From: a virus
Virus record (IMG/VR): IMGVR_UViG_3300048091_000109
Coordinates: 1-39,173 of that record
Length of the DNA: 39,173 bases
Strand: one strand, 5' to 3'
A program made the translations under genes and the position numbers. The notes beneath the pieces were generated by a model, which was given only the letters and a program-made list of their open reading frames with translations, had not been told where the DNA came from and searched no databases. Each line of letters opens with the position of its first letter. The first letter of the stretch is position 1. Positions 1 through 35,144 of the stretch are shown here, in pieces.

Positions 1-127
1 GCATTTGCCACGCCGTTCGACTTCCAGGCCGATCCCGGCTATGACTTTCGCCTAGCTGAAGGCATGAAGGGCATCAATAACAGTGCTGCGGCGCGCGGCG
101 GTGTGCTGTCCGGGGCGGCGCTGAAGG
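1..127. repeat. Terminal direct repeat marking a circular genome (left copy)
   Basis: The first 127 bases are identical to 39047-39173. The repeat lies inside the reading frame of the ejection protein that starts at 38531, and the frame continues without interruption when the copies are merged. A 127-base overlap is a common assembly k-mer length, so this most likely reflects a circular or circularly permuted molecule rather than a biological terminal repeat. The unit genome would be 39,046 bp. Confidence 0.9.
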
Positions 128-747
128 CAGCAAGCAAGTACAACCAGAATTTCGCCTCCAACGAGTACCAGAACGCATTCAACCGCTACGAAACGACCAA
201 CACCGACCAGTACAATCGTTATATGCAGGACAACACGACTGCGCATAACAAGTACATGGAAGAGAACACGGCCGCCTATAACCGCTACAACACCGACAAC
301 ACGAACCAGTACAACCGGTACATGCAGGACAACACCGGCCAGTACAACCGTGATGTGACGAACCAGACGAACCAGTACAACCGCCTGGCATCCCTGGCGG
401 GCGTCGGGCAGACTGCTGCGAATCAAATGAGCAATACCGCGCTGCAGACCGGCCAGCTCGTCGGCAATAACCTGATGACGACTGCAAACCAGATCGGCCA
501 GAACACCATCGGCGCCGGTAATGCGGCGGCGGCCGGGCAGATCGGCCAGGCCAACGCACTGACAGGCGGCATTTCCAGTGCATACAACATGTATCAGCAG
601 AATCAGATGATGAACCTGTTGGCCCAACGAGGCAGCGGCTACAACCCGACCACGGGCGTTGGAGCGGGAGCCGGATACGGTAACACTTCCGCTTACAGCA
701 ATTACGCGCCAACTGCTGCAGCCAACGGCGCATGGGGGATTGAATAA
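1..747 (+). CDS. Putative DNA ejection/transfer protein, C-terminal part (gene crosses the circle junction)
   Basis: This is the 3' part of the gene that starts at 38531. Joined across the overlap, the protein is 420 residues. The frame at base 1 is already open. The fragment carries a segment (GYDFRLAEGMKGINNSAAARG) that I associate with podovirus proteins encoded beside P22 gp10-like genes. It then has five 11-residue repeats (QYNRYMQDNT-type) and an Ala/Gln/Gly/Asn-rich tail. P22-like phages eject internal proteins with the DNA to build a channel through the envelope; position after the neck genes and Ala/Gln/Asn composition fit that role. The stop TAA shares a base with the start of the next gene (TAATG), indicating coupling. 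Function is inferred from context. Confidence 0.75.
   Translation, partial: AFATPFDFQADPGYDFRLAEGMKGINNSAAARGGVLSGAALKAASKYNQNFASNEYQNAFNRYETTNTDQYNRYMQDNTTAHNKYMEENTAAYNRYNTDNTNQYNRYMQDNTGQYNRDVTNQTNQYNRLASLAGVGQTAANQMSNTALQTGQLVGNNLMTTANQIGQNTIGAGNAAAAGQIGQANALTGGISSAYNMYQQNQMMNLLAQRGSGYNPTTGVGAGAGYGNTSAYSNYAPTAAANGAWGIE
208..372 (+). repeat. Five tandem 33-bp units encoding 11-residue (hendecad) repeats
   Basis: Starting at the CAG codon at 208, five consecutive 33-base units encode Q/A-Y/H-N-R/K-Y-x-x-D/E-N-T-x, followed by a partial sixth unit at 373. The 11-residue period suits a right-handed coiled coil. The units have diverged, so selection appears to have kept the periodicity rather than recent copying. 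Confidence 0.8.
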
Positions 748-2210
748 TGGCAGTCGATAGCTCTATTGCATTGCAGGCGCAATTGCCGAAGTTCGACAAC
801 CCGCTGACGCAGTTCGCGCAGGTTTCTGCCATCCAGCAGGCGCAGAATCAGAACCAGCTTGCGCAATACACGCTCGCCAAGGCGCAGCGCGACGACGACG
901 AGGCGCAGGCCGTCCGCAATCTGCTGACGCAATCCGGCGGCGACCTGGAAAAAGGGAAAAATGCGCTGATGAGCGCTGGCTATTACAAGCCGGCGCTTGA
1001 GCTAGGGAAGACGCAGCTTGAGCAGCAGGCAAAGCAGGCTGCAATCAAAAAGGATCTATCTGCTACTGCCGAGACAGACGGCAAGGTTGCGATTCAGCGA
1101 CAAGAAGCCATTGGCAACACGCTCGGCGCGATTGCGCAAATCCCGAATGTCACGCCACAGCATGTCGTCAACGGCATTCGGCATTTAGTTGACATTGGAT
1201 CGATTCAACCGGAAATGGGGCAGAAGATCGTCGCCAGCATTCCGCAAGACCAAAGCCAGTTGCAATCATGGCTGCTGACTGGCCGCAATGCCGTGCTAAA
1301 GGCTGCCGACCAGATGAAGTACACCACGCCGACTGCTGACGCCAAGCTGCAATCCGAAACGTCGATCAAGACAACCGGCATGAACAATGCTGCCTCGCGC
1401 GCCAATAATGCCGACAACATCAGCAAGGATCTGACGGTTGCGGGCGTCGGGCCGGATGGCAAGGTGAGCGATGATGTCGAGACGATGGCGCAAGCTATAG
1501 CAGCCGGAAAGCTGCCGCCGCTGAGTGGCTTTGCACTCGCCAAGCCGCGCGGGCAAGCCATCATGGGCCGCGCGATGGAGATCAACCCGACCTATGACGC
1601 GGGCGACTATGCTGCAAAGAATGCCGCGCTCAAGGGCTTCAGCACGGGCAAGGAAGGCACGGCGCTGCGCTCGTTCAACGTCGCCTCCGATCACCTCGAC
1701 ACGCTCGGCCAGATGGCGGATGCGCTCAACAACGGCAACACGCAGATCCTGAACAAGATCGGCAACGCTTGGGCGGCGCAGACGGGTGGCACGGCGCCGA
1801 CCAACTTCAACGCCGTGAAGGAAATCGTCGGCAAGGAAGTCGTGAAGGCGATTGTCGCGGGTGGTGGCGGCGTTGCAGAGCGCGAGGAGCTATCGAAGCT
1901 GCTGGAAAGCGCGAACTCGCCGCAACAGCTCAAGGGTGTGATCGGCCACTTCAAGGAGCTGATGGATGCGCAGCGTTCCGGCTTGATGGACCAGTATCAG
2001 CGCACCACTGGCCGCACGGATGGTGACACGGTGTTCGCGCCGTCGAAGAAGCCGCCGCAGCAGCAAGTCGCTGAGGCTGTCGCCAATGGCACGAGCGCGA
2101 AGCTTGGCGCCATGCGCCCCGTGCAAGTCAATAACGCTGCCGACTATGCCGCACTGCCGTCCGGGACCGTCTATACGGCGCCGGACGGCTCGCAAAGGAC
2201 GAAACGATAA
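747..2210 (+). CDS. Putative ejection/internal virion protein, 487 aa
   Basis: A long hydrophilic, Ala/Gln/Asn-rich protein without a signal peptide. The N-terminal 60 residues (AQVSAIQQAQNQNQLAQYTL) look helical and coiled-coil-like. A stretch near residues 280-400 includes LRSFNVASDHLDTLGQMADALNNG and GGVAEREELSKLL, patterns I associate with conserved podovirus internal proteins. It starts one base inside the stop of the preceding gene (TAATG) and ends by the same overlap with the next, so three adjacent genes (38531, 747, 2210) look like a translationally coupled ejection-protein set, analogous to P22 gp7/gp20/gp16. No catalytic motif is visible. Role is inferred from order and composition. 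Confidence 0.7.
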   Translation: MAVDSSIALQAQLPKFDNPLTQFAQVSAIQQAQNQNQLAQYTLAKAQRDDDEAQAVRNLLTQSGGDLEKGKNALMSAGYYKPALELGKTQLEQQAKQAAIKKDLSATAETDGKVAIQRQEAIGNTLGAIAQIPNVTPQHVVNGIRHLVDIGSIQPEMGQKIVASIPQDQSQLQSWLLTGRNAVLKAADQMKYTTPTADAKLQSETSIKTTGMNNAASRANNADNISKDLTVAGVGPDGKVSDDVETMAQAIAAGKLPPLSGFALAKPRGQAIMGRAMEINPTYDAGDYAAKNAALKGFSTGKEGTALRSFNVASDHLDTLGQMADALNNGNTQILNKIGNAWAAQTGGTAPTNFNAVKEIVGKEVVKAIVAGGGGVAEREELSKLLESANSPQQLKGVIGHFKELMDAQRSGLMDQYQRTTGRTDGDTVFAPSKKPPQQQVAEAVANGTSAKLGAMRPVQVNNAADYAALPSGTVYTAPDGSQRTKR

Positions 2211-6547: not shown

Positions 6548-6588
6548 GGCTATACTGCGCCCCTTCTTTGTTGCGCTGCCTTGTCTTC

Positions 6589-7830
6589 ATGAAAACCGCC
6601 CGTTCTGCGCCGCTCTTTCTGCTGTTTGCGCTGTCCCTATTTTTGCCCACTTCGCTGCATGGCGTGATCAGTTCGGCGCTGGCCGGGTTCTGGTTTTTGG
6701 TGTGCATCGCCGGGCTGGCGGTCATCGTTTGCCGCCTTCGGCCGCTGCCTATCCTGAAAAGCAATTTTGTCATCGGCCAGGTGCTGATCGCGCTGCTACT
6801 GCTTTTTACGCTGTTGTCGCCGTTGAATGGCTTGGCGCTCGGGGCGGTGGTGCCGTATCTTGGCTTTGCCACTGTGCTGTCGGTGAATTATCGCCGGCTG
6901 CAGGTTGGCCCGTTCTCGATGCGGATCTTTGCGCTGCTGGCGGCGGTGCTGCTGGTCCTCGGATGGGGAACGGTATGTGGCAGCGCGGCTATCAATGGGG
7001 CGCTGGAGGCGAATTATCAGATGTACTACGATGAATTATTCGAGCAGATGGTGGGATGGTACGCCAAGCCGGTGTCGGTCTATGCCACGCATTCGCTGTC
7101 GGCCTTTGCCTATTTTGCCTTTGCGGTGACGTTCTTCCGGCTGGCGCAAGGCGAGGTCCGGATAGGACTGCGGCTGCTGTGGATCATGCTCTGCCTCGGG
7201 TTTGCGCTGCTGATTCCGTTTCTGATGTCAAATAGCGCCATTGGCTTGACCGTCATCCTGACGCTGCTTTTTTTCTGGTATCTATTCAAGAGCGGGCGCC
7301 TGTTTCTGCTTGCTGCGCTCCTGCTGGCTGCTGCTGTCGCGCTGGCGTTGTATGGAGCACCCTTGTTCGCGCTTGTCGATGCGACGTTCCAAGTGCAGGA
7401 TATTTTCAGCAGCAATCTAAACGGGTTTGCCGGTCGGTTCTCCACGGATTCGCGGCTCAGCTCAACTTACCGCTACCTGATGGAATACAGCTTCTGGCCG
7501 GTCGGCCTGAGCAATGATCCGGCCATCAGCTTTGGCGATAACTTCATTGCGGAATACATCGTGCGACTGTCGCCGATTGGCTATGTGCTGATTCTGGTGA
7601 TGCTCTATCGTTTTTTGAGGGCGAATCTGCAATCGAAGCGGATGGCGCAGGCATTCTTTCTCTTCTTCTTGATGGGCGATCAGAGTTTCCCACTGCTGAC
7701 GAGCTTCCGGTTTTTGTTCATGTTGCCAGTGCTGGTGCTGCTATGGAATGGCGCGGCACAGTTGGGCACGGTCAAGCCGCGCCGGCTTCGATTTGTGCGG
7801 CGGCGGATTTTCGCTGCAAGGCCGGCATGA
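6589..7830 (+). CDS. Wzy-like O-antigen polymerase/ligase-fold membrane protein, 413 aa (putative moron)
   Basis: A very hydrophobic inner-membrane protein with about ten predicted spans. One long loop near residues 270-320 (GRFSTDSRLSSTYRYLMEYSF, then GDNFIAEYIVRLSPIG) follows the periplasmic-loop pattern of Wzy/WaaL polymerases, where arginines bind the glycan substrate. Wzy joins lipid-linked O-units in the periplasm. The ATG at 6589 is chosen over a TTG at 6568 because the peptide then begins with a short basic end followed by a membrane helix. The gene is flanked by a hairpin upstream and a strong terminator downstream, and sits directly after the tailspike gene, a layout typical of a lysogenic-conversion moron. 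Phages D3 and epsilon-15 carry wzy genes that change host O-antigen linkage. Exact activity is inferred. Confidence 0.72.
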   Translation: MKTARSAPLFLLFALSLFLPTSLHGVISSALAGFWFLVCIAGLAVIVCRLRPLPILKSNFVIGQVLIALLLLFTLLSPLNGLALGAVVPYLGFATVLSVNYRRLQVGPFSMRIFALLAAVLLVLGWGTVCGSAAINGALEANYQMYYDELFEQMVGWYAKPVSVYATHSLSAFAYFAFAVTFFRLAQGEVRIGLRLLWIMLCLGFALLIPFLMSNSAIGLTVILTLLFFWYLFKSGRLFLLAALLLAAAVALALYGAPLFALVDATFQVQDIFSSNLNGFAGRFSTDSRLSSTYRYLMEYSFWPVGLSNDPAISFGDNFIAEYIVRLSPIGYVLILVMLYRFLRANLQSKRMAQAFFLFFLMGDQSFPLLTSFRFLFMLPVLVLLWNGAAQLGTVKPRRLRFVRRRIFAARPA

Positions 7831-10629: not shown

Positions 10630-10918
10630 CGTCGTTTTTGGATTGCTTAAACGGAACCACGTTTTCTAGTTCCCGCCGTACACCGCCTGCATCACGGAAT
10701 GCCAGCCATTGCTTGTAATGCGTGTCGCAGTAGTGCAGATTCGGGCCAATTTCATGGCTATGCGTTTCGCAAATGCTACGGTCACAGGTCTTGCCCTTGC
10801 CGACTGGGTAATCGCATAAGTTCTCGCCAACATCGGCACAATCGGCGCAATGCGGTCCGAGATCGCCGCAAATGAACATGCGCCCACCGTCTTTTGTTTT
10901 CGGTATATAACAGGGCAT
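10625..10918 (-). CDS. Cysteine/histidine-rich zinc-binding protein, 97 aa
   Basis: Between residues 17 and 64 it carries closely spaced Cys and His ligands: CGDLGPHCADCADV, LCDYPVGKGKTCDRSIC, then HYCDTHYKQW. This fits one or two zinc sites of a type often seen in small phage accessory proteins whose role is unknown. The C-terminal tail is charged. The ATG at 10918 has no strong ribosome binding site; an internal ATG 13 codons later (MFICGDL) is preceded by a purine-rich stretch and could be the true start. It lies in the minus-strand accessory cluster. Confidence 0.72.
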   Translation of the reverse strand: MPCYIPKTKDGGRMFICGDLGPHCADCADVGENLCDYPVGKGKTCDRSICETHSHEIGPNLHYCDTHYKQWLAFRDAGGVRRELENVVPFKQSKNDA

Positions 10919-10955
10919 CTTGTTGTACTTTCTATAACATTAAACAGAATGGATA

Positions 10956-11399
10956 TTATGCGTCGTTGGTATAGCGCCAGATCGTGGCGGAAATTAGGCA
11001 ACCCCACCAGCCAAGCATCCACGCCGCATCCGGCATTTCCCCTGCAAGCCAGCGACTCCCGAAGCCGAGCGCCACGACCGCGAACAATCTAAGCATTTTG
11101 TTCCCCAGGTGATGCGACGCGAAGCAGGAGCGCGTTCCAACCGTGCAGAGTGCAGGCGATGGCTCGTTCTCCATTGCAACCGTGATCGTATTGACAGCAT
11201 GCGTCGGACGCACAATTTCCCCGATGCATAATGCGCTATCACGTTGTGACGCATCCTTCTCCACTGCGGCCATCGCCGCCTGCCAGCCTTCCCACTTGTC
11301 TCTGACCTTCTCATCGATGTAGCAGCCGGCATTGTCCTTTTTGGCTTGCCGCGAGGACAGTTGAAAGTGCGCCTCGAATTGAGCGCGGGTATCGGTCAT
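10956..11399 (-). CDS. Unknown protein with C-terminal hydrophobic hairpin, 147 aa
   Basis: The N-terminal 60 residues (TRAQFEAHFQLSS, then VRDKWEGWQAAMAAVE) match a pattern common in small phage proteins. The last 45 residues contain two hydrophobic helices (MLRLFAVVALGFG and AAWMLGWWGCLISATIW), so the product could be membrane-tethered or could be two fused or separate genes, with internal ATG starts for the C-terminal part. The start ATG overlaps the stop of 11396-11740 (ATGA). The stop codon belongs to a repeated GACGCATAA junction sequence. No function assigned. Confidence 0.62.
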   Translation of the reverse strand: MTDTRAQFEAHFQLSSRQAKKDNAGCYIDEKVRDKWEGWQAAMAAVEKDASQRDSALCIGEIVRPTHAVNTITVAMENEPSPALCTVGTRSCFASHHLGNKMLRLFAVVALGFGSRWLAGEMPDAAWMLGWWGCLISATIWRYTNDA

Positions 11400-11740
11400 T
11401 TCGGTTCTCCCCCGTCTGCTATCGCTGCCGCCGCTCGCACGATGGCGCGACGAGTAGCTGCATAAGGGTCACCGTTCCAATCTTCCAGTGAAACTCCGGG
11501 ATGATGGATCGATTGCGCATATGCCTGTTCTTGATTGCAATGCGTGGCAAGGCGAAGCTCCAGCTTCACTGCCAGCCGTAGCGCATCGCCGTCATCGGCA
11601 AGCGGTCGCCACAAAACCCACTCGGAATAGCCGGGCAATACGGGGCGAGCGTCGCGCTGAAAGCAGTTCCATGCGTCATCCCATTGGATTGAAATTCCGG
11701 CAGCCTTTGCGGCTTTTTCCTGTAATTCGCGGTCGGTCAT
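11396..11740 (-). CDS. Conserved small phage protein, 114 aa
   Basis: A soluble protein opening with MTDRELQEKAAKAAGI. It then has WVLWRPLADDGDALRLAVKLEL and a C-terminal helix (TRRAIVRAAAAIADGG). This W-x-PL-x-DDGDALRLA arrangement is familiar from short phage proteins of unknown role in betaproteobacterial and enterobacterial phages. It is the first gene of an overlapping pair with 10956-11399. A weak ribosome binding region precedes its ATG. Confidence 0.68.
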   Translation of the reverse strand: MTDRELQEKAAKAAGISIQWDDAWNCFQRDARPVLPGYSEWVLWRPLADDGDALRLAVKLELRLATHCNQEQAYAQSIHHPGVSLEDWNGDPYAATRRAIVRAAAAIADGGEPK

Positions 11741-12784: not shown

Positions 12785-13630
12785 TTATGCACCGCGCTTT
12801 TCCGCATCCTGCTCTACCGCCTTCACCTGGGATGCGCGCTTAATAGTCACGGTGTCAGTAATCTTGTTGACCTCAAAATCATGCAGGAAGCCAACCGACT
12901 TTAATGATTCCAGCGCCTCTTTCAGCATGTAACGGAATTTCCGCAGCTCGGCGCATTTGGATCCGCATATCTGGTAAAGCGTCTCTACCTTGTAGACGAA
13001 CGGTTCGGCGTGGCTGAAATAGAAGCTATGGAGCCATTTCGCCAGCGGTGTCAGCTTCTGCCGCTGCGGCCAGTCAATGAGCGTATAGCCGTCGCTGACA
13101 AACAGAGCCATCATCTTCGGATCCAGCTTGATCTTCCAGTTCGTGCGAACCTCGTTGGAATCCATGTCCGACCAGGCCACGTCGCACATCCGACCCGTGA
13201 AGCCTTTCCTGCCATTGTTGTAGGTCACAATCACAGTCGATTCGGTGAGCCTGAACAGGGACCCTTTCAGCCGTTCATACTCCCGGCCACTAACACCCCA
13301 CCCCAATCCCTTCAGCAGTGCCTCGCCGGTTATTTCGATCTCGGTGCCGCCAGCGACATCCCGCGCCATGTGGATGGTCTGCAGATACACGTCGGCATCA
13401 TCCTGCCGCAACTCCATGCCGGTATAGAACAGGTCAAAGCCATTGATCGAGGCCACATTGACCCGCTGCAGCATTTCCCGTTCCTCCGCCTTCCCTGCCG
13501 CCTTAAACAGTGCCGAGCGGGCAAACGGATTCGGGATCCCGCGCTGCTGGTCGCGCCAGGATGGCATCTTTGTTGGAAACCGCCGCTCCTGTAATTTCTC
13601 AGATGCAGCGATCAGGCTTTTTTCCTTCAT
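12785..13630 (-). CDS. trfA: TrfA-family plasmid replication initiator, 281 aa
   Basis: The protein matches the TrfA pattern of broad-host-range plasmids: RGIPNPFARSALF (residues 30-42), an FYTG-x-EL-x-QDDADVYLQ block (68-84), winged-helix regions, and LTPLAKWLHSFYFSH (193-207). Its 281 residues compare with about 285 for the short form of RK2 TrfA. TrfA binds origin iterons, opens DNA and loads helicase with DnaA. Five iterons and two perfect DnaA boxes lie immediately upstream, so this is a cis-acting replicon and the iterons probably also repress the gene. GGGGAG lies five bases before the ATG. A plasmid initiator in a phage that also encodes O and DnaB homologues is the key sign of a phage-plasmid. 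Confidence 0.9.
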   Translation of the reverse strand: MKEKSLIAASEKLQERRFPTKMPSWRDQQRGIPNPFARSALFKAAGKAEEREMLQRVNVASINGFDLFYTGMELRQDDADVYLQTIHMARDVAGGTEIEITGEALLKGLGWGVSGREYERLKGSLFRLTESTVIVTYNNGRKGFTGRMCDVAWSDMDSNEVRTNWKIKLDPKMMALFVSDGYTLIDWPQRQKLTPLAKWLHSFYFSHAEPFVYKVETLYQICGSKCAELRKFRYMLKEALESLKSVGFLHDFEVNKITDTVTIKRASQVKAVEQDAEKRGA

Positions 13631-13645
13631 TCTTTCTCCCCGTCA

Positions 13646-13758
13646 TCGTGTTATGGCTGACAATCCATCGTGTTATGGCTGACACTTATCCACAATCGTC
13701 GTGTTATGACTGACAAAGTGCCGTGTTATGGCTGACGTTTTATCGTGTTATGGCTGAC
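13646..13758. repeat. Five iterons of the plasmid origin (TCGTGTTATGGCTGAC type)
   Basis: Copies lie at 13646-13661, 13668-13683, 13699-13714 (one change, GACTGAC), 13721-13736 (CCGTG start) and 13743-13758, all in the same direction. Start-to-start spacing is 22, 31, 22 and 22 bp, so most copies sit on the same face of the helix, and the wider gap contains a DnaA box. The sequence is unlike the RK2 iteron I remember, so the initiator has its own specificity. Confidence 0.93.
13686..13694 (+). promoter_or_regulatory. DnaA box (perfect) within the iteron array
   Basis: TTATCCACA is the consensus DnaA box, placed in the enlarged gap between iterons 2 and 3. Confidence 0.88.
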
Positions 13759-13760
13759 GC

Positions 13761-13769
13761 TGTGGATAA
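13761..13769 (-). promoter_or_regulatory. DnaA box (perfect, inverted) at the end of the iteron array
   Basis: TGTGGATAA is the exact complement of TTATCCACA and lies two bases after the fifth iteron. Together the two boxes show that host DnaA takes part in opening this origin. Confidence 0.88.
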
Positions 13770-13814
13770 GATTTCGTCAATGAATCATGGATTTACAAGC
13801 GGTTTCCGATTGCC

Positions 13815-13847
13815 TAATCTTTCTTTAATCTTTTCTTAATCAAAACC
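13815..13847. other. AT-rich DNA unwinding element with three 11-bp phased TAATC repeats
   Basis: TAATC recurs at 13815, 13826 and 13837, exactly 11 bp apart, inside an AT-rich tract 45-80 bp from the last iteron. The arrangement resembles the repeated AT-rich mers opened by DnaA and initiator proteins in other origins. Confidence 0.75.
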
Positions 13848-13852
13848 GTCTA

Positions 13853-14155
13853 TCAGGGCCTGTAATGTTTCGCCAGCAACTCATCCACGCGATCCTCAAC
13901 GGCCTTCAACGCGATCGAATGCATGGACTCATTGGGCAGGTTCTCAGCCGCCCACGTCAACTTCGCATGTAGCGGCTCAGGAAGTCGCAACGAGAACACA
14001 GTTTTTACCTTTGGATTTGCCCGATCCCAAGGGCCAGACACATCAGCAGCGATGGTCGGCCTTTTCTCGTTCCTGGTGAACTCCAGTACCGTCTGCTCCA
14101 ACTGCTCGATGAACGCGGCCTGCCTTGCAACCTGTTCAATTAGCTCTTTACTCAT
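13853..14155 (-). CDS. Putative ribbon-helix-helix DNA-binding protein, 100 aa
   Basis: ATG at 14155, with AAGGAA upstream, is preferred to an upstream in-frame start at 14224 that would run through the repeat-rich regulatory region. Residues 1-30 are helical (a coiled-coil-like ELIEQVARQAAFIEQLEQTVLEF). Residues about 54-95 read KTVFSLRLPEPLHAKLTWAAE, then MHSIALKAVEDRVDELL, fitting a beta-strand plus two helices of the Arc/CopG class. It lies between the origin and the parA operon, divergent from parA, with repeated TATCAAG motifs in the shared upstream region. A role in copy control or partition regulation is inferred. Confidence 0.68.
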   Translation of the reverse strand: MSKELIEQVARQAAFIEQLEQTVLEFTRNEKRPTIAADVSGPWDRANPKVKTVFSLRLPEPLHAKLTWAAENLPNESMHSIALKAVEDRVDELLAKHYRP

Positions 14156-14163
14156 GGCGTTTC

Positions 14164-14260
14164 CTTGATGTGACGTTAACATCATATCATGAATAATAAA
14201 GATATCAAGATAGATTGCAATCAAGCTACCTTGATATCAATATCCCAAGGCATCAAGATA
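14164..14260. repeat. Candidate partition site or operator upstream of parA: repeated TATCAAG motifs
   Basis: Copies or near-copies occur at 14164-14170 (inverted), 14203-14209, 14219-14225, 14230-14236 (inverted, inside the palindrome TTGATATCAA) and 14251-14257. The block at 14198-14217 recurs with one change at 15174-15193 after the operon. Sites on both sides of a parA operon are typical of centromere or operator DNA bound by a small partner protein. Confidence 0.72.
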
Positions 14261-14299
14261 TTTCGCTACCATGCGAGAAATCCATATAGGGAGGAAAGA

Positions 14300-14917
14300 G
14301 TGAAAACGATAGGTGTCTTCAATTCCAAAGGCGGATCTGGGAAAAGCACAATCGCTGTTCATGTTGGCGTCGCTGCTGCGTATGAATCGCGTGTCGCGCT
14401 GCTTGATGCGGATCCACAGGGTACGCTTAGCACGTGGGGAACCGTTCGCCAGGAAAAGGCGCCTGCAGTCATGGCTGTGACAGCCGACAGCTTGCAAGCA
14501 GAGCTGCGAAAGCTGGAGCTGCAAGGCGTTGAGTTGGCACTGGTGGATTGCCCGCCATACATCACGGCGGAAAGCTCTCGCCTGGTCAACTTGTGCGACT
14601 TCATCGTGGTTCCGGTTCAGCCAACTATGCCGGACATTTCTGGATGCATGAAGGCAATCAAGATAATTCTGGCGGCAAAGAAGCCTTTTGCATTTGTCGT
14701 CAATCGGGTGCGTCCGCGGGCGCCGGAAACGCAGGAAGCGGTTGATGCACTAAAGCAGCATGGAGATGTGTGCAAAATCATGTTCGGGGACCGCGTTGCA
14801 TTCTCCAGGGCATTGGCAAGCGGATTGTCAGTTCATGAATTTTCAGCAAAAAGTGAAGCCGGGAAGGAGGCTGCGGCCGTCTCGCATTGGATCCTTTCTA
14901 TGGCGAAGGAGAAGTGA
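14300..14917 (+). CDS. parA: ParA-family partition ATPase, 205 aa
   Basis: A deviant Walker A motif KGGSGKST is at residues 10-17. LLDADPQG follows at about 35-42 and LVDCPP at about 81-86; all are ParA/MinD signatures. The short length without an N-terminal DNA-binding domain places it with small (type Ib-like) plasmid ParA proteins, which act with a small ribbon-helix-helix partner. GTG at 14300 is preferred because GGGAGG lies five bases upstream; the open frame extends 37 codons further but crosses the regulatory repeats. The next gene overlaps by one base (TGATG) and supplies the likely partner. It would position plasmid-prophage copies at cell division. Confidence 0.92.
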   Translation: MKTIGVFNSKGGSGKSTIAVHVGVAAAYESRVALLDADPQGTLSTWGTVRQEKAPAVMAVTADSLQAELRKLELQGVELALVDCPPYITAESSRLVNLCDFIVVPVQPTMPDISGCMKAIKIILAAKKPFAFVVNRVRPRAPETQEAVDALKQHGDVCKIMFGDRVAFSRALASGLSVHEFSAKSEAGKEAAAVSHWILSMAKEK

Positions 14918-15159
14918 TGGCAACTAAAGCACAGCCTCTTTCTACGTTCACAGATGTGGAGGATTCTCCAGTTCGTCCCACCGCATTGCCGGACCCTGAG
15001 CCGGCACAAACAGAATTACGGCAGAAGGTTTTCAGGCTCACGCCGGCCCAAGCCAGGGCACTTAAGAAGTTCTGCGCCGACAGTGACATGACAATGCAGG
15101 AAGTAATTATTGAGGGCATAAATCTTGTTCTGAAGGCGCGCGGCCTGCCTACGATATAA
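14917..15159 (+). CDS. Small ParA partner (ParB/CopG-like), 80 aa
   Basis: It starts in the stop of parA, with AAGGAG five bases before the ATG. The first 40 residues are polar and disordered-looking (TFTDVEDSPVRPTALPDPEPA), suitable for ParA contact. Residues 43-75 read QKVFRLTPAQARALKKFCAD, then TMQEVIIEGINLVLKA, a ribbon-helix-helix arrangement. Small partners of this layout bind centromere repeats and stimulate ParA ATPase. The matching repeats upstream of parA and directly after this gene support that role, although no family hit is available. Confidence 0.8.
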   Translation: MATKAQPLSTFTDVEDSPVRPTALPDPEPAQTELRQKVFRLTPAQARALKKFCADSDMTMQEVIIEGINLVLKARGLPTI

Positions 15160-15173
15160 AGAAATAAAGGTAG

Positions 15174-15212
15174 AAAGATATCAAGATACATTGATACCTT
15201 TCACCCTTGATT
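15174..15212. repeat. Second TATCAAG repeat cluster downstream of the par operon
   Basis: A 20-base block at 15174-15193 matches 14198-14217 with one difference, and an inverted copy CTTGATT lies at 15206-15212. These lie in the short gap between the par operon and the convergent minus-strand operon. Confidence 0.7.
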
Positions 15213-15214
15213 GC

Positions 15215-15430
15215 TTATTTCAACCGACTTGACTGCAGCTCTTTTACGCTGGCCGGCACTTGCGGGTAGGCCGACCAAGCATCAAAGAAGCCGATGCTGT
15301 CGGATGTCCACACGGTCGGCACAAGCACGCCGCCTCTGCCGAGAGCCAGCACCCTTGCCCCGTTCGGCGGTGGCGCCTGGTGCGCGTCGATCAGCTCGAC
15401 GGCGGGCCGGGTAGGGCGGTCAGGCTCCAT
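15215..15430 (-). CDS. Small conserved phage protein, 71 aa (possibly DUF551-like)
   Basis: The central part reads PPPNGARVLALGRGGVLVPTVW and is followed by FFDAWSAYPQVPASV. The pattern of Pro-Pro, then a G-x-x-VL beta-strand and aromatic residues resembles short phage proteins of the DUF551 type, but I am unsure. It is the last gene of the recombination operon that runs down from 19369, overlaps the gene before it by 11 bases, and ends 55 bp from the par operon. Function unknown. Confidence 0.6.
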   Translation of the reverse strand: MEPDRPTRPAVELIDAHQAPPPNGARVLALGRGGVLVPTVWTSDSIGFFDAWSAYPQVPASVKELQSSRLK

Positions 15431-19895: not shown

Positions 19896-20300
19896 TTAGG
19901 CGTTGTGCCCCTCTCCTGGAGGGGTGCGCCTACATAGAGTTTCGATTAGTGTTCGGTCCATCGGACTAGCGGCGCGATACGCCGTAAGAATTTCCATTTC
20001 AGCAGGTGTTACATGGGTAAGAAACATCTTCCCTTCGTCCTGCACGTCAGATTCCTTCTCCCCTTTCTTCTTCGGACCTTTGCCCTCCAGCAGCCACTCG
20101 ATGCGATACCCCAAGGTGTTGCAAATGGCGAGCGCATGGTCACTGTTTATTGATTTTTGCCCCGAAAGCCAGTGATTTACAACGGGCCTTCCAGCCCCGG
20201 CAATTTTGGCGAGGCGCGCTTGTTTTCCGTATTCAGAACCATCCATGTCACCAAGAATGACTCGAATCCGATCGGCTAATGCCATCGTGTCTTCGCTCAT
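19896..20300 (-). CDS. CI-like phage repressor, HTH type, 134 aa
   Basis: Residues about 5-65 form a lambda-repressor-type helix-turn-helix (ADRIRVILGDM, KQARLAKIAGAGRPVVNHWL, INSDHALAICNTLGYRIEWLL). The last 40 residues (THVTPAEMEILTAYRAASPMDR) are a short helical domain, and there is no S24/LexA-like self-cleaving peptidase domain, so induction cannot be by RecA-stimulated autocleavage. ATG at 20300 is preferred, leaving 101 bp for regulation; the longer frame starts at 20384 only 17 bp from the divergent gene. It probably maintains the prophage state by binding the operators on either side. Confidence 0.75.
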   Translation of the reverse strand: MSEDTMALADRIRVILGDMDGSEYGKQARLAKIAGAGRPVVNHWLSGQKSINSDHALAICNTLGYRIEWLLEGKGPKKKGEKESDVQDEGKMFLTHVTPAEMEILTAYRAASPMDRTLIETLCRRTPPGEGHNA

Positions 20301-20366
20301 GTTGTTTTCGGCGCTGAATGGTAAGAGGTTTTGCGTATAGCTTTCGAAACGCTTCTTCGTATGTTG

Positions 20367-20401
20367 TTGCGGAAATGCGTTCATAAGTTTAAACTGTTTA
20401 G
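20367..20401 (+). promoter_or_regulatory. Candidate right promoter/operator of the Cro-like gene
   Basis: TTGCGG (20367-20372) and TAAACT (20390-20395) are 17 bp apart. TAAACTGTTTA (20390-20400) is an 11-bp palindrome covering the -10 element and ending two bases before the ATG at 20402. No ribosome binding site lies between, so the transcript would begin close to the start codon (leaderless). Confidence 0.58.
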
Positions 20402-20692
20402 ATGAATGCGAAACAACTAATCGAAGCGGCCGGAGGTCGCCAGGCGGTGATGCAGCTAACCGGCCTGAAACGCGCCCGGATCTCTCAATGGTGTACGGAA
20501 AACTATATTCCGGCCCCGTGGGTGTTGCTCTTTAAGTCCAAGTTCCCGGTTATTCGTAAAGCGAAACTTGAACTAGCTGAAACTTATCATAAAAAAGTGC
20601 AGCCTGCTGTTCAGAATTCTAACGCTGAAGGACAGTTTAGCGTTGATAAAGCGCAAACAGTTGCGGCCAGTCAACCTAAGGGGCGGGCATGA
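20402..20692 (+). CDS. Cro-like helix-turn-helix protein, 96 aa
   Basis: Residues 1-45 read NAKQLIEAAGGRQAVMQLTG, then RARISQWCTENYIPAPWVLLF, a typical Cro/YdaS-type HTH in which the recognition helix is followed by an aromatic turn. The remaining half is polar with Gln, Ala and Lys. It diverges from the repressor and opens the plus-strand early operon, so it should act as the anti-repressor-type partner in the switch. It has no visible ribosome binding site and may be leaderless. Overlap of four bases with the next gene. Confidence 0.78.
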   Translation: MNAKQLIEAAGGRQAVMQLTGLKRARISQWCTENYIPAPWVLLFKSKFPVIRKAKLELAETYHKKVQPAVQNSNAEGQFSVDKAQTVAASQPKGRA

Positions 20693-21587: not shown

Positions 21588-21781
21588 AGGCTAAAAAGTC
21601 GCTCTTGCCGCTGATAGTTCTCGGCGCTGGTCTTGGCCCTGGCTGGCTTACAGCGATGCTGAACCAATTTCCCGAGCCAAAGCCGCCGCGCGAGAAAACA
21701 GCCGCGGATCTCGCCACCATCGCTCGCGCAGAAGAGAAGCGGCAGCGTAAGGCCAACAAGATCAAGAGGGCGGGCAAATGA
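21584..21781 (+). CDS. Small membrane-anchored protein, 65 aa
   Basis: Residues 6-26 (LLPLIVLGAGLGPGWLTAML) form one hydrophobic segment after a basic start. The rest is a Lys/Arg/Glu-rich helix. GGAGGAG lies upstream of the ATG. It overlaps both neighbours by four bases. No function is known. Confidence 0.6.
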   Translation: MKAKKSLLPLIVLGAGLGPGWLTAMLNQFPEPKPPREKTAADLATIARAEEKRQRKANKIKRAGK

Positions 21782-22077
21782 AGGGCTCCACGCCAACCAA
21801 GGCCGATAAGGCTCTATGGGATGCGCTGGCGTCTCTCGGCTGCGCTGCCTGTCGCAAGGACGGCATCGTCAATCCTTGGGTAAGCATTCATCACCTGGAC
21901 GGTAGAACTAAGCCTGGCTGTCATCAACGGGTTCTGGCCCTGTGTGGTCCGCACCATCAGCAAGACGACAGCTCGGGAGTATGGGCCGTACACCCGAATA
22001 AAGCTCGCTTTGAACAGGAGTACGGCACACAAGAGGAACTGCTTGAGGAATGCAAGCAGATATTGGGGCTGGAATAG
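21778..22077 (+). CDS. Ref-like RecA-dependent nuclease, 99 aa
   Basis: The sequence has CAACRKDG (residues 22-29), SIHHLDGRTKPGCH (36-49) and LCGPHHQQD (55-63), the arrangement found in the compact HNH nuclease domain of phage P1 Ref and relatives. Ref cuts DNA inside RecA-formed displacement loops and stimulates recombination. This copy is only 99 residues, so it is mainly the nuclease core. P1 is itself a phage-plasmid. Overlap with the preceding gene shows it belongs to the early plus-strand operon. Confidence 0.8.
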   Translation: MKGSTPTKADKALWDALASLGCAACRKDGIVNPWVSIHHLDGRTKPGCHQRVLALCGPHHQQDDSSGVWAVHPNKARFEQEYGTQEELLEECKQILGLE

Positions 22078-22147: not shown

Positions 22148-22318
22148 ATGAATAACCAAAGTATATCGCAAAAACATACGGTCTTGCAGAGGGGCGACGA
22201 ATTCTTCGTTGTGTACCCGACGCCGGGCCTTGAGCATGTGCCGACGCTGGCACTGATCTGCAGGACTGAGCAGCAAGCGCAGGAACAGTGCGACCGCCTG
22301 AACGGAGGTTTGCAATGA
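22148..22318 (+). CDS. Small unknown protein, 56 aa
   Basis: AAGGA is seven bases before the ATG at 22148. The product (RGDEFFVVYPTPGLEHVPTL, then CRTEQQAQEQCDRLN) is a small alpha/beta polypeptide without known motif. Its stop overlaps the O-like gene's ATG (ATGA), and its tail contains GGAGG, the O gene's ribosome binding site, so it may couple O translation. Confidence 0.65.
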   Translation: MNNQSISQKHTVLQRGDEFFVVYPTPGLEHVPTLALICRTEQQAQEQCDRLNGGLQ

Positions 22319-23103
22319 AGCCGGCCAAAGTGCTTAACCTGGAAACGCCGAGGGCGCCACAAGTGGAAGACGGATATACCCGCATCGCAAACGAGCTGTT
22401 CGACGCCATTCTGCGCGCCGGCCTGACCGCCCGCGAACTGTCGGTTGTGATGGCGATCATCCGCAAGACCTATGGCTACAACAAGAAGCAGGACGACATT
22501 TCTGCATCGCAGATCGGCGGCCTGTGCAACATGGCGCGCAACCATGTGACGACCACGCTCAAGCAACTGGAAGCAAAGCAGATCATCCACAAGCGCGAAG
22601 GCTCCTATGGCTCAGTTGTCGGCATCCAGAAAGACTACTCCCTGTGGCTCCTGAATGGAGATAGTCCCAAATCGGGACTAGTCCCAAATCGGGACGTAGA
22701 TAGTCCCAAATTGGTACTAGTCGATAGTCCCAAATCGGGACACACAAAAGACAACCTTCCAAAAGACAACCTACAAAAGACACCGAGCAGCGAAAGAAAA
22801 ATCTCGCTGCTCGCATTCCTGGAGCGCTGCAAGGCAGAGAGCAGGAAGCCCATTCCTGAAGACGATGCAGTTTTTAAGTATGGCGAGAGCGTTGGAATCT
22901 CCATCGAGTTCATCCGCCTGGCCTGGATCGAGTTCAAGCGTAAGTACAGCGCAAAAGGCGCACGCAAGTACATCGACTGGAATCAGCACTTCCAAAACGC
23001 TGTACGCGAGAACTGGTACCACCTGTGGTTCATCAAGGGCGACACCTACGAACTGACCACCCGCGGTCTGCAAATCCAAAAAGAACTCAGGGAGCAAGCA
23101 TGA
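22315..23103 (+). CDS. Lambda-O-like replication initiator, 262 aa
   Basis: The N-terminal domain matches phage replication protein O: VEDGYTRIANELFDAILRAG, LTARELSVVMAIIRKTYGYNKK, and the winged helix ASQIGGLCNMARNHVTTTLKQ. A linker at about residues 116-150 is encoded by repeated iteron DNA. The C-terminal domain (FIRLAWIEFKRKY, then WNQHFQNAVRENW) resembles the part that recruits helicase. The product would bind origin repeats in its own gene and load the DnaB-like helicase from the next gene (ATGA overlap). ATG at 22315 is preferred to upstream codons because AACGGAGG precedes it. Confidence 0.87.
   Translation: MKPAKVLNLETPRAPQVEDGYTRIANELFDAILRAGLTARELSVVMAIIRKTYGYNKKQDDISASQIGGLCNMARNHVTTTLKQLEAKQIIHKREGSYGSVVGIQKDYSLWLLNGDSPKSGLVPNRDVDSPKLVLVDSPKSGHTKDNLPKDNLQKTPSSERKISLLAFLERCKAESRKPIPEDDAVFKYGESVGISIEFIRLAWIEFKRKYSAKGARKYIDWNQHFQNAVRENWYHLWFIKGDTYELTTRGLQIQKELREQA
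22662..22784. repeat. Putative lytic origin: four iterons and an A-rich repeat tract inside the O-like gene
   Basis: Copies of TAGTCCCAAATCGGGAC lie at 22662-22678, 22679-22695, 22701-22717 (three changes) and 22725-22741. Each contains the inverted repeat GTCCC/GGGAC around AAATC. CAAAAGACAACCT follows at 22745-22757 and 22760-22772, with a partial copy at 22774-22784. The design (palindromic iterons then an A-rich strand) matches lambda ori. In protein these units give repeated DSPKSG. Confidence 0.88.
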
Positions 23104-24458
23104 AAGCCAACGATCTGCCAAACGCCAACGATGCCGTCTATGCCGAGCAATCCCTGCTTGGCGCCCTGATGCTGGACAACGAAGCGCTGTATCGTGTCCC
23201 TGACGTAAAAGCCGAGCATTTCTACCGCGCCGACCATCGCGCGATCTTCGAGGAAATCTGCAAGCAGATTGGCGCCGGCAAGACTGCCGACCCGATCACG
23301 CTGTTTGCCTCCCTGCAGACCAAGGTCGATGACTGCCTGCATTACCTGACGCAGATTGCGACCAATACCACCTCGGCCGCCAGCGCGAACCGTTACGCCG
23401 ACATTGTGATGGACCGTGCGCTGAAGCGCTCCGTCGCAGCGCTCGGCGGCGAAATGATGGAGTTGCGCACATCCCTGGAGCCAGCAGACACGATCATCGA
23501 CCGCCTTGCCGCCAAGGTCGAAGCGCTCGCGCAGAAGCAGACCCGCCAAGAGCCGCAGCGCCTGAACGACATGCTTGGCTCTTACGTCGATGTGATCCAG
23601 GCGCGCATGGACGGGAAGATCAAGCCAATTTCGACCGGCTTTGCGGATCTGGACCGACGCCTTGATGGTGGCCTGGAGCGCGGAACGCTGACCGTTGTCG
23701 CTGGCCGCCCGGCAATGGGCAAGACCGCATTCGGCCTCGGCATCGCTCGCAATGTCGCGGAATGGGGTAGCAGCCTATTCCTGTCGATGGAAATGAGCCG
23801 CGATCAGGTGAACGACCGCCTGATTGCCGCGCTCGGGAAATTGCCGATCGCCTGGCTGCGCCGGCCGGACGACCGCAGCGACGAGGGAAAGCAGAACTTC
23901 AACCGGATGACCCACGCTTTCCAGCGCGCGCAGGAGCTGAACCTGTACATCGACGATCAGACGGCGCTCAACATGCTCGACATACGCGCTAAATCGCGCT
24001 CAGTGAAGCGCAAACAGGGTTTGGATGTCCTGGTCATAGACCAGCTCAGTTTTATCGCTGGAGGCGCTTCTGACAAGAGCTGGGAGGTTGTCGGAGAACA
24101 CACGCGCGGCCTGCTGCAGCTAGCCAAGGAATTGAACATCGCAATCGTGCTGCTCTGCCAGTTGAACCGGAAATGCGAGGAGCGCAACAACAAGCGGCCG
24201 ATGCTCTCCGACCTGGCAGTTTCCGGGTCCATCGAGCAGGACGCGGCGAACGTCATCTTCCTGTACCGCGATGAGGTCTACAACAGCGAAACGATGGACA
24301 AGGGCGTCTGCGAGGTGATCACCGCGAAGCAGCGGCAGGGCGAGCCGGGAACGGTCGGCCTCGCGTACATCGGCAACCAGACCCGATTCGAGGATCTGGC
24401 GACGCCATGGCAGCCGAGCGAACAGCGGGAAAAGCCGCGCAGTCGGGGTTTTGATTGA
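23100..24458 (+). CDS. dnaB: Replicative DNA helicase, DnaB family, 452 aa
   Basis: The N-terminal DnaB domain (AVYAEQSLLGALMLD, EHFYRADHRAIFEEI) is followed by the RecA-like motor with Walker A GRPAMGKT (residues 202-209), SMEMS (229-233), Walker B VIDQL (312-316) and a late arginine-containing AKQRQGEPG motif. The hexamer unwinds DNA ahead of the phage or host polymerase. ATG at 23100 overlaps the O-like stop (ATGA), and the frame upstream is shadow. A phage-coded helicase makes replication independent of helicase loading by host DnaC. Confidence 0.95.
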   Translation: MKANDLPNANDAVYAEQSLLGALMLDNEALYRVPDVKAEHFYRADHRAIFEEICKQIGAGKTADPITLFASLQTKVDDCLHYLTQIATNTTSAASANRYADIVMDRALKRSVAALGGEMMELRTSLEPADTIIDRLAAKVEALAQKQTRQEPQRLNDMLGSYVDVIQARMDGKIKPISTGFADLDRRLDGGLERGTLTVVAGRPAMGKTAFGLGIARNVAEWGSSLFLSMEMSRDQVNDRLIAALGKLPIAWLRRPDDRSDEGKQNFNRMTHAFQRAQELNLYIDDQTALNMLDIRAKSRSVKRKQGLDVLVIDQLSFIAGGASDKSWEVVGEHTRGLLQLAKELNIAIVLLCQLNRKCEERNNKRPMLSDLAVSGSIEQDAANVIFLYRDEVYNSETMDKGVCEVITAKQRQGEPGTVGLAYIGNQTRFEDLATPWQPSEQREKPRSRGFD

Positions 24459-26595: not shown

Positions 26596-28449
26596 ATGCT
26601 CGTACTCACTCCCGGCTATAGCGTCACGCTCACGCTGAACGCGCAGGATAGCGTTTTCGTGGAATCGCGCGACTCCGTAGTGGTCGAGGCAGTGTCGGGC
26701 CTGGGGCTTTCGCCGGGCGTGATCGCCACGCTGGACGGCAAGCAGACGTTCGGCCCGTATGCGGCTGGTCAGTTTAAGCTTACGGCCATCGGCGGCGACT
26801 GCGCTTACAACGTGATCGCGGCGAGCAATACAGGCGGCGTGCAGCTCGCTTACGACGCATCCGGCAATGTGCTGGGGGTCGTGGCACCGGGTGGGGTGGT
26901 GCCGATTCGTTCAGCTGTGCGCGTAGCATTTTTCGGTGACTCGATCACACAGCAATCCATGTCGTTTGGCCTGCAAATCAACGGCCAGCCAGCGGATAAT
27001 TTCGGCGGTCAGGGCTTCACTGTATTGTGGGCCGACTGGTCAACGCCAGCAGGTGCAGGGACACTGGTCTATGACCAGACCGCAAAGACGCTGCAATGGA
27101 CGCCGTTTGGCCTTTCCGCGGGCGCAGCGGTCGATGCATCCACGACTGGCATCTTGCGCATTCCCGGCCCAAGCAACGACACCGGCCTATGGGTGAACTG
27201 GTTCGGAAAGTCCCGCCCTTATACCTCCGGCTCGACCTCCGTGACTGTGAAGGCAGACGGATCGCAGCAATGGAACTGGGTCGCTTATGGCTTCCCGGTA
27301 CAGGCGATGGCATACGCCGGCCAGCGGTTCGTGTGGGCTAACTACAGCGGCCTGCCGGGAGGGAAGGCGTGCTATGGCATCGGCGGTGCGCGCATCAATG
27401 ACATGAACGACGCAAAGCCGCAGTGGGGCGGCATCGTTTCCGACATCGATGTGATTGAGATTGGTACTAATTCCTGCTCTGCCGGCTATCCGGGCACGCC
27501 GACTTTTACGGCTGCGCAGATGATTGCCGACCTGAAAACACTGATTGACACGCGCCGCGCCGTCACGCCGGTTGTGATCGTTTGCACCATCCCGCCGAAA
27601 AGCACATCGAACGAAACGATTGCGATGCAGCAGCAGCGTTCTGCGGTGAACCAGTGGATATTCGACTACTGCAAGACTGCGACGGGGCTGATCCCGTTCG
27701 ACCTGAATGCGCTAGTTTCCGACCCGACGAACGGCCTTTACCTGTCGGGGTACTCGTATGATTCGGTCCATCCGTCAAACATCGGCGCGCAGACAATCGG
27801 GTATGCGCTCGCACAGGTGATGCTGTCACTGTCGCCAACGCAGTCCGGCGTGCATTTGCCCGGTTATTTCGACACCTTTGATGCGACTTACAATCCTTAC
27901 GGGAACATGCTGCCGACCGCTGGCATGGCAACGTTTGAGGGTACGGGCGGCACAGCAGGCACGGGCGCGTCCGGCACTGTTCCGACCGGGTACACGATGA
28001 GCCGTGACAGCGGCGCGGCAATGACGGGCACTGGCAGCAAAGTCGCCCGCACGGATAGCATCCCCGGCAACTGGTATCAGGTGCAGCTTGCAGGGGCCGT
28101 TGCGAATGAAAATATTGCGTTGCGCACGCCAGGCATCACATCGGCAGTGGCCGGGGAAACGGTCGAGGCGCTGCTGGAAGTAAATGTGCCATCGTCCAGT
28201 TTGCTGTACGCGATTAACGTAACCCTAGTGCCGGGCGGTGTGACGGGCAGATCGGCAAGCTCGTTTGCCGCATCCTCAATGGTTCATAAGGACAGCATGG
28301 GCAAACTCTGGTTACGTACCGCGCCCTACACGATTCCTGCTGGCGCAACATCCGTCGCGCCGTACATCAACATGAGCACCCAAAACGGCGGCAGCGCGAC
28401 GATCCAACTAGGCCGCCTGGTTTATAGAAAAGTAAGGCCGGGCTTCTAA
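26596..28449 (+). CDS. SGNH-hydrolase (GDSL esterase) protein, 617 aa
   Basis: The catalytic blocks are in order: AFFGDSIT (Ser at residue 116), GIGGARIND (about 261-269), IEIGTNS (Asn at 292) and DSVHPSN (Asp389, His392). SGNH enzymes remove acyl groups, often O-acetyl from sugars. Residues 1-80 are beta-rich and may be a virion-attachment part, and residues about 430-617 form a Gly/Thr/Ser-rich beta domain typical of carbohydrate-binding tail modules. The gene opens the late block, before the terminase genes, far from the tailspike. A virion deacetylase of O-antigen or capsule is inferred. AAGGATAACC precedes the ATG. Confidence 0.82.
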   Translation: MLVLTPGYSVTLTLNAQDSVFVESRDSVVVEAVSGLGLSPGVIATLDGKQTFGPYAAGQFKLTAIGGDCAYNVIAASNTGGVQLAYDASGNVLGVVAPGGVVPIRSAVRVAFFGDSITQQSMSFGLQINGQPADNFGGQGFTVLWADWSTPAGAGTLVYDQTAKTLQWTPFGLSAGAAVDASTTGILRIPGPSNDTGLWVNWFGKSRPYTSGSTSVTVKADGSQQWNWVAYGFPVQAMAYAGQRFVWANYSGLPGGKACYGIGGARINDMNDAKPQWGGIVSDIDVIEIGTNSCSAGYPGTPTFTAAQMIADLKTLIDTRRAVTPVVIVCTIPPKSTSNETIAMQQQRSAVNQWIFDYCKTATGLIPFDLNALVSDPTNGLYLSGYSYDSVHPSNIGAQTIGYALAQVMLSLSPTQSGVHLPGYFDTFDATYNPYGNMLPTAGMATFEGTGGTAGTGASGTVPTGYTMSRDSGAAMTGTGSKVARTDSIPGNWYQVQLAGAVANENIALRTPGITSAVAGETVEALLEVNVPSSSLLYAINVTLVPGGVTGRSASSFAASSMVHKDSMGKLWLRTAPYTIPAGATSVAPYINMSTQNGGSATIQLGRLVYRKVRPGF

Positions 28450-28755: not shown

Positions 28756-29052
28756 ATGACGCGTGGCGGAGCGAGGCCGAACGCTGGCCGCAAAGCTGGC
28801 GCGGCAACCAAGAAGACCAAGGAGATAGCGGACAAGGCGGCGGAAGAAGGCATCACGCCACTGGAATACCTGCTATCTGTGATGCGCAACGAGGTCAATG
28901 AGCCGAAGGAGCGCGTTACGGCTGCGATTGCTGCTGCTCCCTATGTGCATGCCAAGCTGTCCAGCGTGGAGGCGACTGTAACCGGCAAGGATGGCGGCCC
29001 GTTGCAGATGAACTGGACGATTGATTTCGTCGCGCCAGAAGATGAAGGTTGA
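28756..29052 (+). CDS. terS: Small terminase subunit, 98 aa
   Basis: The start TRGGARPNAGRKAGAATKKT is the classical Gly/Ala/Arg/Lys-rich opening of many small terminase subunits. A helical region follows (TPLEYLLSVMRNEVNEP, ERVTAAIAAAPYVHAKLSSVE). The protein selects phage DNA and delivers it to the large subunit. The site AAAGGAAATC lies before ATG. The gene overlaps terL by 11 bases. It lacks a clear HTH, which is common in this group. Confidence 0.85.
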   Translation: MTRGGARPNAGRKAGAATKKTKEIADKAAEEGITPLEYLLSVMRNEVNEPKERVTAAIAAAPYVHAKLSSVEATVTGKDGGPLQMNWTIDFVAPEDEG

Positions 29053-30313: not shown

Positions 30314-30321
30314 GGATGAAC

Positions 30322-30540
30322 ATGGACATCGGACAAGCAACTGCATTCTTGAAAAGCGGTGAGCGTGTAGCCCGCGCCGGATGGAATGGCAAGGGCATGT
30401 ACCTTGAACTGCAGATCCCGGACGCGCATAGCAAGATGAGCCTGCCGTATGTCTACATGAAGACCGCAGATGACAAGATGGTTCCTTGGCTGTGCAGCCA
30501 AACCGATCTGCTGGCTGAAGATTGGCAGGTAGCGTCGTAA
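30322..30540 (+). CDS. tad2: Tad2-like anti-Thoeris protein (DUF2829), 72 aa
   Basis: The family features are strongly conserved: AFLKSGERVARAGWNGKGMYL near the start, then VYMKTADDKMVPWLCSQTDLL and AEDWQV. DUF2829 proteins include Tad2, which binds and sequesters the cyclic ADP-ribose-type signal of Thoeris defence. The length (72 aa) is typical. ATG at 30322 is preferred because AGGG is six bases upstream; an ATG at 30316 is too close to it. The gene lies between terL and portal, downstream of a terminator, and overlaps the portal start (TAATG). Confidence 0.88.
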   Translation: MDIGQATAFLKSGERVARAGWNGKGMYLELQIPDAHSKMSLPYVYMKTADDKMVPWLCSQTDLLAEDWQVAS

Positions 30541-32720: not shown

Positions 32721-32962
32721 TCCTGGAAGACAGAATCGACCAGATCAACCAGCAACTGCCGGCGCTGCAATCTGCGGTGCTGGTGGGCTTGCTGCGCGAG
32801 CGCATCGCCACCCTGACCGAACGGCTGATCGGCGCGGATAGTGAACAAGTACGCGGCGCGATCAAGGAACTGCGCCAATTGATCGATTTACCGGGCCAAC
32901 TGCAGACCGAGTTGGCCTACCTGACCGCTGGATTATCCGAGCAATCGGACCCGGCAAACTAG
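32717..32962 (+). CDS. Small coiled-coil protein, 81 aa
   Basis: A helical heptad-like polypeptide (EDRIDQINQQLPALQSAVLV, then IATLTERLIGADSEQVRGAIKEL) between portal and scaffold. The ATG overlaps the portal stop (ATGA). It may be a head-assembly accessory. No family was recognised. Confidence 0.62.
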   Translation: MILEDRIDQINQQLPALQSAVLVGLLRERIATLTERLIGADSEQVRGAIKELRQLIDLPGQLQTELAYLTAGLSEQSDPAN

Positions 32963-33027
32963 CAACCGCAGCACCCGGACTCCCTTACCTCCTATCGGGG
33001 GAAGGCCCACTTAGGAGTAGCAAAACA

Positions 33028-33789: not shown

Positions 33790-33811
33790 CTCTCCCCGAT
33801 AGGAAATCAAC

Positions 33812-34801: not shown

Positions 34802-34819
34802 TCCCGCTTTAACCCCGCA

Positions 34820-34847: not shown

Positions 34848-34860
34848 GATGAGGAAATCC

Positions 34861-35142: not shown

Positions 35143-35144
35143 CC

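Follow-up and report, generated by a model that had tools for sequence, protein, structure and literature searches.

A complete circular podovirus genome carrying a TrfA-type plasmid replicon and partition genes: a probable phage-plasmid

Introduction

Phage-plasmids are known as a class that is usually without an integrase, and conversion among phage-plasmids, plasmids, and integrated prophages has been described (PMC12977533, PMC10879196). A podovirus precedent is POI1126 of Ochrobactrum, which has partition genes and whose prophage was found experimentally to be extrachromosomal (PMC5492332). RedRock-type mycobacteriophage prophages are also extrachromosomal, being without an integrase and carrying parABS (PMC7157519). 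Among the circular phage scaffolds of glacial group 10, which are 37-38 kb in size, some have an integrase, some have ParA/ParB, and one has a GDSL lipase (PMC4490671). In plasmids, the unwinding element of RK2 has four 13-mers whose A-rich strand is bound by TrfA, and replication is hindered when one of them is lost. RK2 TrfA also binds the sliding clamp through a QLSLF/QLPLW motif. Losing this contact abolishes clamp binding, which is key to oriV replication in vitro (PMC4980987).

No published description of a TrfA-driven phage-plasmid was found in the literature, of which our coverage is incomplete. In this study, we analysed a stretch of 39,173 nucleotides (the window), which is the whole of record IMGVR_UViG_3300048091_000109. 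Its sequence indicates that it is very probably a complete temperate podovirus, from a lineage that infects Burkholderiales (probably Oxalobacteraceae), and that its prophage would be a low-copy plasmid. The phage-plasmid lifestyle is known; what is new, as far as published descriptions were found, is a TrfA-type initiator in a podovirus phage-plasmid.

Results

Phage genes and integration genes in the window

The window is a circular assembly with a 39,046-bp unit. Its main phage features are as follows.

1-39173, no strand: complete circular phage genome; exact 127-bp terminal overlap; entire IMG/VR record
28756-37213, plus strand: terminase, portal, scaffold region, major capsid protein, neck and head closure genes; PHROG matches; block conserved in relatives
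19896-20384, minus strand: CI-like repressor, HTH only, 162 aa; HTH_3, phrog_4
20402-20692, plus strand: Cro/YdaS-like regulator
22288-23103, plus strand: O-like replication initiator, candidate lytic replication module; PF04492, E=1.7e-27
23025-24458, plus strand: DnaB-like replicative helicase; PF03796, E=1.7e-72

Genes for the head, packaging, neck, ejection, spike, lysis, and DNA metabolism were open in the window, with intact reading frames for terminase, portal, capsid, neck, ejection, spike, endolysin, and spanin. The structural, packaging, and lysis genes were complete, as expected of a phage-plasmid. The O-like/DnaB replication module was oriented rightward. Among annotated phages, the first 25 kb of the window had no close relative at the DNA level.

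Three further genes were observed. A Ref-family RecA-dependent nuclease (PF16786, E=6.6e-24), a protein known from phage-plasmid P1, is encoded at 21778-22077. A protein with a GDSL lipase/acylhydrolase domain (PF13472) lies between the replication genes and terminase at 26596-28449. The multi-membrane-spanning protein at 6568-7830 adjoins the tail spike; it matched neither Pfam nor PHROG, has by eye the look of an O-antigen polymerase, and could possibly cause serotype conversion.

We then searched the window for integration genes. Neither a tyrosine (PF00589) nor a serine (PF00239) recombinase was detected in the window even at E<=1, in a search with positive controls. Since the record is circular by its exact overlap, this is an absence from the complete sequence, as is typical of phage-plasmids. 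The window was also without a multimer-resolution recombinase, no toxin-antitoxin pair was seen in it, and its best match to a dif-like site was no better than those of shuffles, none being convincing. Neither conjugation genes nor IncP-1 backbone genes were recognised among the window proteins scanned. An initial annotation of this DNA had described an otherwise complete podovirus genome with a CI/Cro-type switch and no visible integrase, and our results agree with it on all three points.

TrfA initiator, origin, and partition operon

The plasmid-type genes begin with the initiator.

12785-13630, minus strand: trfA, plasmid replication initiator, 281 aa; PF07042, E=1.7e-31, conserved residues, fold

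The TrfA protein scored 109.8 bits against PF07042 (curated cut-off 22), covering positions 39-280 of the 282 in the profile, which places it in the family. It was 41-46% identical to TrfAs of Burkholderiales plasmids and 30% identical to that of pJP4. Because of this low identity, and as IncP-1 backbone genes were not recognised among the proteins scanned, an IncP-1 plasmid replicon was rejected. The predicted structure (pTM 0.79) resembled the Vibrio initiator RctB (E=7.6e-7) and the TrfA model 9a0w (E=3e-5), although the TM-scores were modest, at about 0.4 to 0.54; the model has the predicted two winged-helix fold of iteron initiators.

Non-functional TrfA residues had been named beforehand as a point that would speak against a phage-plasmid. 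In our alignment, the residues invariant across ten plasmid TrfAs were all retained in the window TrfA. However, the position of the clamp-binding motif was occupied by a degenerate TKMPSW and not by QLSLF or QLPLW. The plasmid homologues mostly have QLPLW or QIPLW there, followed by the conserved stretch R(G)xPN; the motif is likewise missing at this place from the aligned gonococcal TrfA. The motif is functional in RK2 but is no condition of PF07042 membership. Judged from the alignment, its degeneration is a real caveat for the predicted function of the window TrfA.

The region upstream of trfA has the elements of a plasmid origin.

13647-13760, plus strand: five 15-nt iterons CGTGTTATG[G/A]CTGAC; starts 13647, 13669, 13700, 13722, and 13744; spacing 22, 31, 22, and 22
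13686-13694, plus strand: DnaA box TTATCCACA, perfect match
13761-13769, minus strand: DnaA box TTATCCACA (reverse), perfect match
13815-13841, minus strand: triple A-rich 13-mer GATTAAGAAAAGATTAAAGAAAGATTA, candidate DNA unwinding element; unique in the window; like plasmid origins
13853-14158, minus strand: small RHH/HicB-like protein upstream of the origin; weak PF05534; a 42% homologue is similarly placed before trfA in viral locus L222

The only 13-mers that occur at least four times in the 39 kb were those inside the five iterons. Exactly two perfect DnaA boxes are present in the 39 kb, both inside or adjoining the iteron array, one per strand. A triple of this kind also precedes trfA at five of the eight plasmid loci examined (Burkholderia, Cupriavidus, and Polaromonas; L172-L176) and at three of the ten viral TrfA loci (L222, L223, and L227). 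A CACGA end on the trfA strand is common to the iterons of the Burkholderia and Cupriavidus plasmids. The sequence shows that the window holds a plasmid initiator together with its own origin.

On the other side of the origin lies a partition operon.

14160-14299, no strand: divergent promoter region with clustered ATCAAG repeats, candidate centromere/operator; repeat counts
14300-14917, plus strand: parA, type Ib (ParF-like) partition ATPase, 205 aa, KGGSGKST Walker motif; PF01656, ParF 4dzz
14887-15159, plus strand: RHH partner of ParA, ParG-like by position, 90 aa; PF20605, E=3.1e-6
15160-15215, no strand: second ATCAAG repeat cluster, behind the par operon; repeat counts

The start of parA is most plausibly the GTG at 14300, behind GGGAGGAAAG, and the resulting 205-aa form matched PF01656 with E=5.5e-17. 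Its best solved relatives were ParF 4dzz (PDB, E=4.6e-12) and ParA 5u1g. As in type Ib systems, the ParA is small and without an N-terminal HTH, and the nearest solved structure is ParF. ATCAAG/CTTGAT occurred seven times in 197 bp around the operon against 0.18 expected, a post hoc count made once the repeats had been seen. The RHH protein and the repeat clusters on either side of the operon fit a ParF/ParG-like system, in which the protein would bind the repeats. These results indicate a partition system in which the ParA partner and the centromere are identified solely from position and repeats. The TrfA-like initiator, the iteron origin with DnaA boxes, the operon of parA and a small partner, and the flanking repeats of the initial annotation were all recovered here, and the triple 13-mer and the second RHH-like gene at 13853-14158 are additions to it.

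These data bear on whether the module is a decayed remnant or serves lytic replication only, with the phage persisting by pseudolysogeny or a host-supplied recombinase. Such a reading would agree with the degenerate clamp motif and with the presence of a second complete replication module, O/DnaB. However, the other conserved TrfA residues, the iterons, the DnaA boxes, and the 13-mers are intact, and the partition operon has no evident use in lytic growth. We consider this explanation unlikely.

Integrases in the relatives of the phage

Relatives were gathered by capsid and terminase queries, which gave 47 and 80 viral loci, and 50 records were searched. A tyrosine integrase was detected by profile search in 28 of the 50, and in 8 of the 12 capsid relatives of at least 34 kb. 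TrfA (PF07042) was detected in none of the 50, in a search whose control genomes hold no TrfA and which has no positive control. A tblastn search of nine whole relatives with the window TrfA was also negative, and the same query finds other viral TrfAs. A distant ParA was present in one of the 50 relatives. The integrase profile was absent from four further circular relatives (G017, G023, G032, and G040). One of these, G032 (L155-L156), is a circular 40-kb phage with a terminase 73% identical to that of the window, a ParA-like gene, and no integrase match; it is possibly another independent phage-plasmid.

When nine relatives were compared gene by gene, the structural block was partly common and the replication and lysogeny region differed. 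In relative G019, an integrase (1-1221, minus strand) is followed by a CI-like repressor (10858-11571, minus strand) and then by O and DnaB. Because the G019 integrase and the trfA-par module of the window both lie in the interval between lysis genes and repressor, we infer that the module stands in for the integrase. Since an integrase occurs in 28 of the 50 relatives and TrfA in none, the simplest reading of these sequences is that the plasmid module most likely took the place of the integrase in one lineage. The two repressors also differ. The window repressor (19896-20384) has no recognisable self-cleavage domain and that of G019 has 236 aa with a CI-like C-terminal match; induction may differ between the two phages.

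Two Janthinobacterium records, NZ_LT607655.1 and NZ_FTMV01000002.1, contain prophage-like loci that resemble the window in the capsid (88% identical) and a collinear structural block. Unlike the window, these loci lie in contigs of 0.4-0.5 Mb, and no trfA-par module was seen in the 21 kb around them. The host lineage is probably Burkholderiales, Oxalobacteraceae, on kinship only, with the Janthinobacterium contigs as the clue. The initial annotation had named an integrase in related genomes as evidence against a phage-plasmid. Given the integrase-bearing relatives and the two loci in Janthinobacterium contigs, the plasmid habit is that of this member and not of the phage group, and the claim has been narrowed to this extent.

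TrfA in other phages and plasmids

The window TrfA had no match among annotated phages. Viral contigs were scanned with the single trfA and parA sequences and with a pattern for the iteron pair, and nothing was found; therefore, no close copy of the module was available. A profile-guided scan found ten TrfA-bearing viral contigs (G444-G453, corresponding to L222-L231) of 17-116 kb and differing phage types, seemingly undescribed as a group. Some of them are fragments, and their viral status comes from IMG/VR and named genes. Terminase profiles matched six of the ten; the match in G449 was a PhoH-like protein, leaving five. G452 (61.6 kb, circular) has a portal, a capsid, a giant protein of the kind found in Bcep22-like podoviruses, and a terminase 48% like that of the window. 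G446 has a siphovirus-type portal and tape measure, and the circular, 87-kb G444 encodes a DarB/methyltransferase-like protein besides a portal. These contigs span at least three phage types other than that of the window, and eight of the ten had no tyrosine integrase match.

In a tree of 51 rows, the window TrfA was sister to the G444 TrfA (97/98), within a supported clade that includes Burkholderia plasmids. The viral TrfAs did not form one group, and the viral label required at least five changes on the tree; therefore, TrfA has moved between plasmids and phages more than once.

Several plasmids were examined as candidate phage-plasmids of the same kind and rejected. Burkholderia glumae pyh83p (61 kb), a top TrfA match, was viewed over 50 kb, in which structural genes of a phage were absent. 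Comamonas thiooxydans NZ_CP083940.1 (L125), a phage-plasmid-like plasmid of 57.7 kb with a giant protein, ParA, and a related terminase, has a PF03090 replicase as initiator instead of TrfA. In the Massilia plasmid NZ_CP024609, an N4-gp56 capsid occurs together with ParA/ParB and integrases, and TrfA is not among the annotated genes. Two Arsenophonus plasmids with a distant terminase were viewed; both have integrases, and their annotated initiators are of other kinds. Separately, near-identical TrfA genes were observed in eight Oxalobacteraceae genomes (L192-L199), several of them in very large contigs; two of the eight have an internal TAA in the matched frame.

Since the viral contigs yielded no second copy of the module, its join to the phage is supported by a single assembly. 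A metagenome assembler might have joined a TrfA plasmid fragment to a podovirus genome, in keeping with a join seen in one record only and with scans of viral contigs that turned up nothing close to trfA, parA, or the iteron pair. We regard such a chimera as very unlikely, as the contig closes on itself elsewhere by the exact 127-bp overlap, leftward phage-type genes flank the module on both sides, the GC and GC3 of trfA are near those of the phage genes, and further phage contigs, of which two are circular, also contain TrfA. A plasmid that acquired phage genes and lost infectivity, by the kind of conversion described for P1-like elements (PMC10879196), is scarcely credible when all genes from terminase to spanin are open, the gene block is collinear with the Janthinobacterium prophage-like stretches, and conjugation genes were not recognised among the proteins scanned.

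Discussion

The window combines plasmid replication and segregation genes with the lack of an integration gene, and many of the closest relatives of the phage have integrases; it follows that the phage most likely persists as a plasmid. Under repressor control, TrfA would bind the iterons and, together with host DnaA, open the 13-mers, so that the prophage would be replicated at low copy. The RHH partner would bind the flanking repeats as a centromere and repress the divergent promoter, and ParA would segregate the prophage copies. On induction, the O-like/DnaB module would take over for lytic replication. The trfA-par module would in this way substitute for an integrase.

The proposal of the initial annotation, a likely undescribed phage-plasmid, holds in that a TrfA-type podovirus phage-plasmid is the best supported reading; it does not extend to the phage group, and POI1126 is a podovirus precedent. 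TrfA had also been thought unusual as a prophage replicon. The combination was indeed not found published, but other TrfA-bearing phage contigs exist. It is an evenly balanced question whether the TrfA replicon, made up of the small RHH gene, the iteron origin, and trfA, is an exchangeable lysogeny cassette among proteobacterial phages. In that case, unrelated lineages would have taken it up separately from plasmids in place of integration, and the TrfA family would mark a class of phage-plasmids that is polyphyletic and has gone unrecognised.

These related phages, some having an integrase and others lacking one, offer a direct test of the switch between integrating and plasmid lysogeny. A well-studied plasmid initiator is here tied to phages, which bears on the exchange of parts between plasmid replicons and phages and on incompatibility between phage-plasmids and TrfA plasmids. 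Plasmid-typing schemes would call such a prophage a TrfA plasmid.

Among plasmids, B. glumae p86s5p, B. cenocepacia pTY921B, and Polaromonas pH6NP1 resemble the window in that repeat arrays and a triple A-rich 13-mer precede trfA. Two of them, p86s5p and pTY921B, also agree with the window in iterons that finish with CACGA on the trfA strand and in a ParA gene next to trfA. All three are plasmids of 82-89 kb, whereas the window replicon is in a 39-kb phage, and the window differs from them in its two perfect DnaA boxes and degenerate clamp motif. The oriV-TrfA system of RK2/IncP-1 has an initiator of the same family, and iterons, DnaA boxes, and A-rich 13-mers occur in both. However, the window TrfA has about 30% identity (to pJP4) and a short N-terminus, and three 13-mers were recognised, not four. 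Among phages, the circular scaffolds of glacial group 10 are likened to the window by description and not by sequence, and TrfA does not occur in the text of that paper (PMC4490671). The RedRock-type phages differ from the window in being actinobacterial, with RepA-like or RNA-based origins and another partition system. Compared with the window, POI1126 is Bcep22-like, has 60 kb, and keeps a putative integrase, with no initiator identified (PMC5492332).
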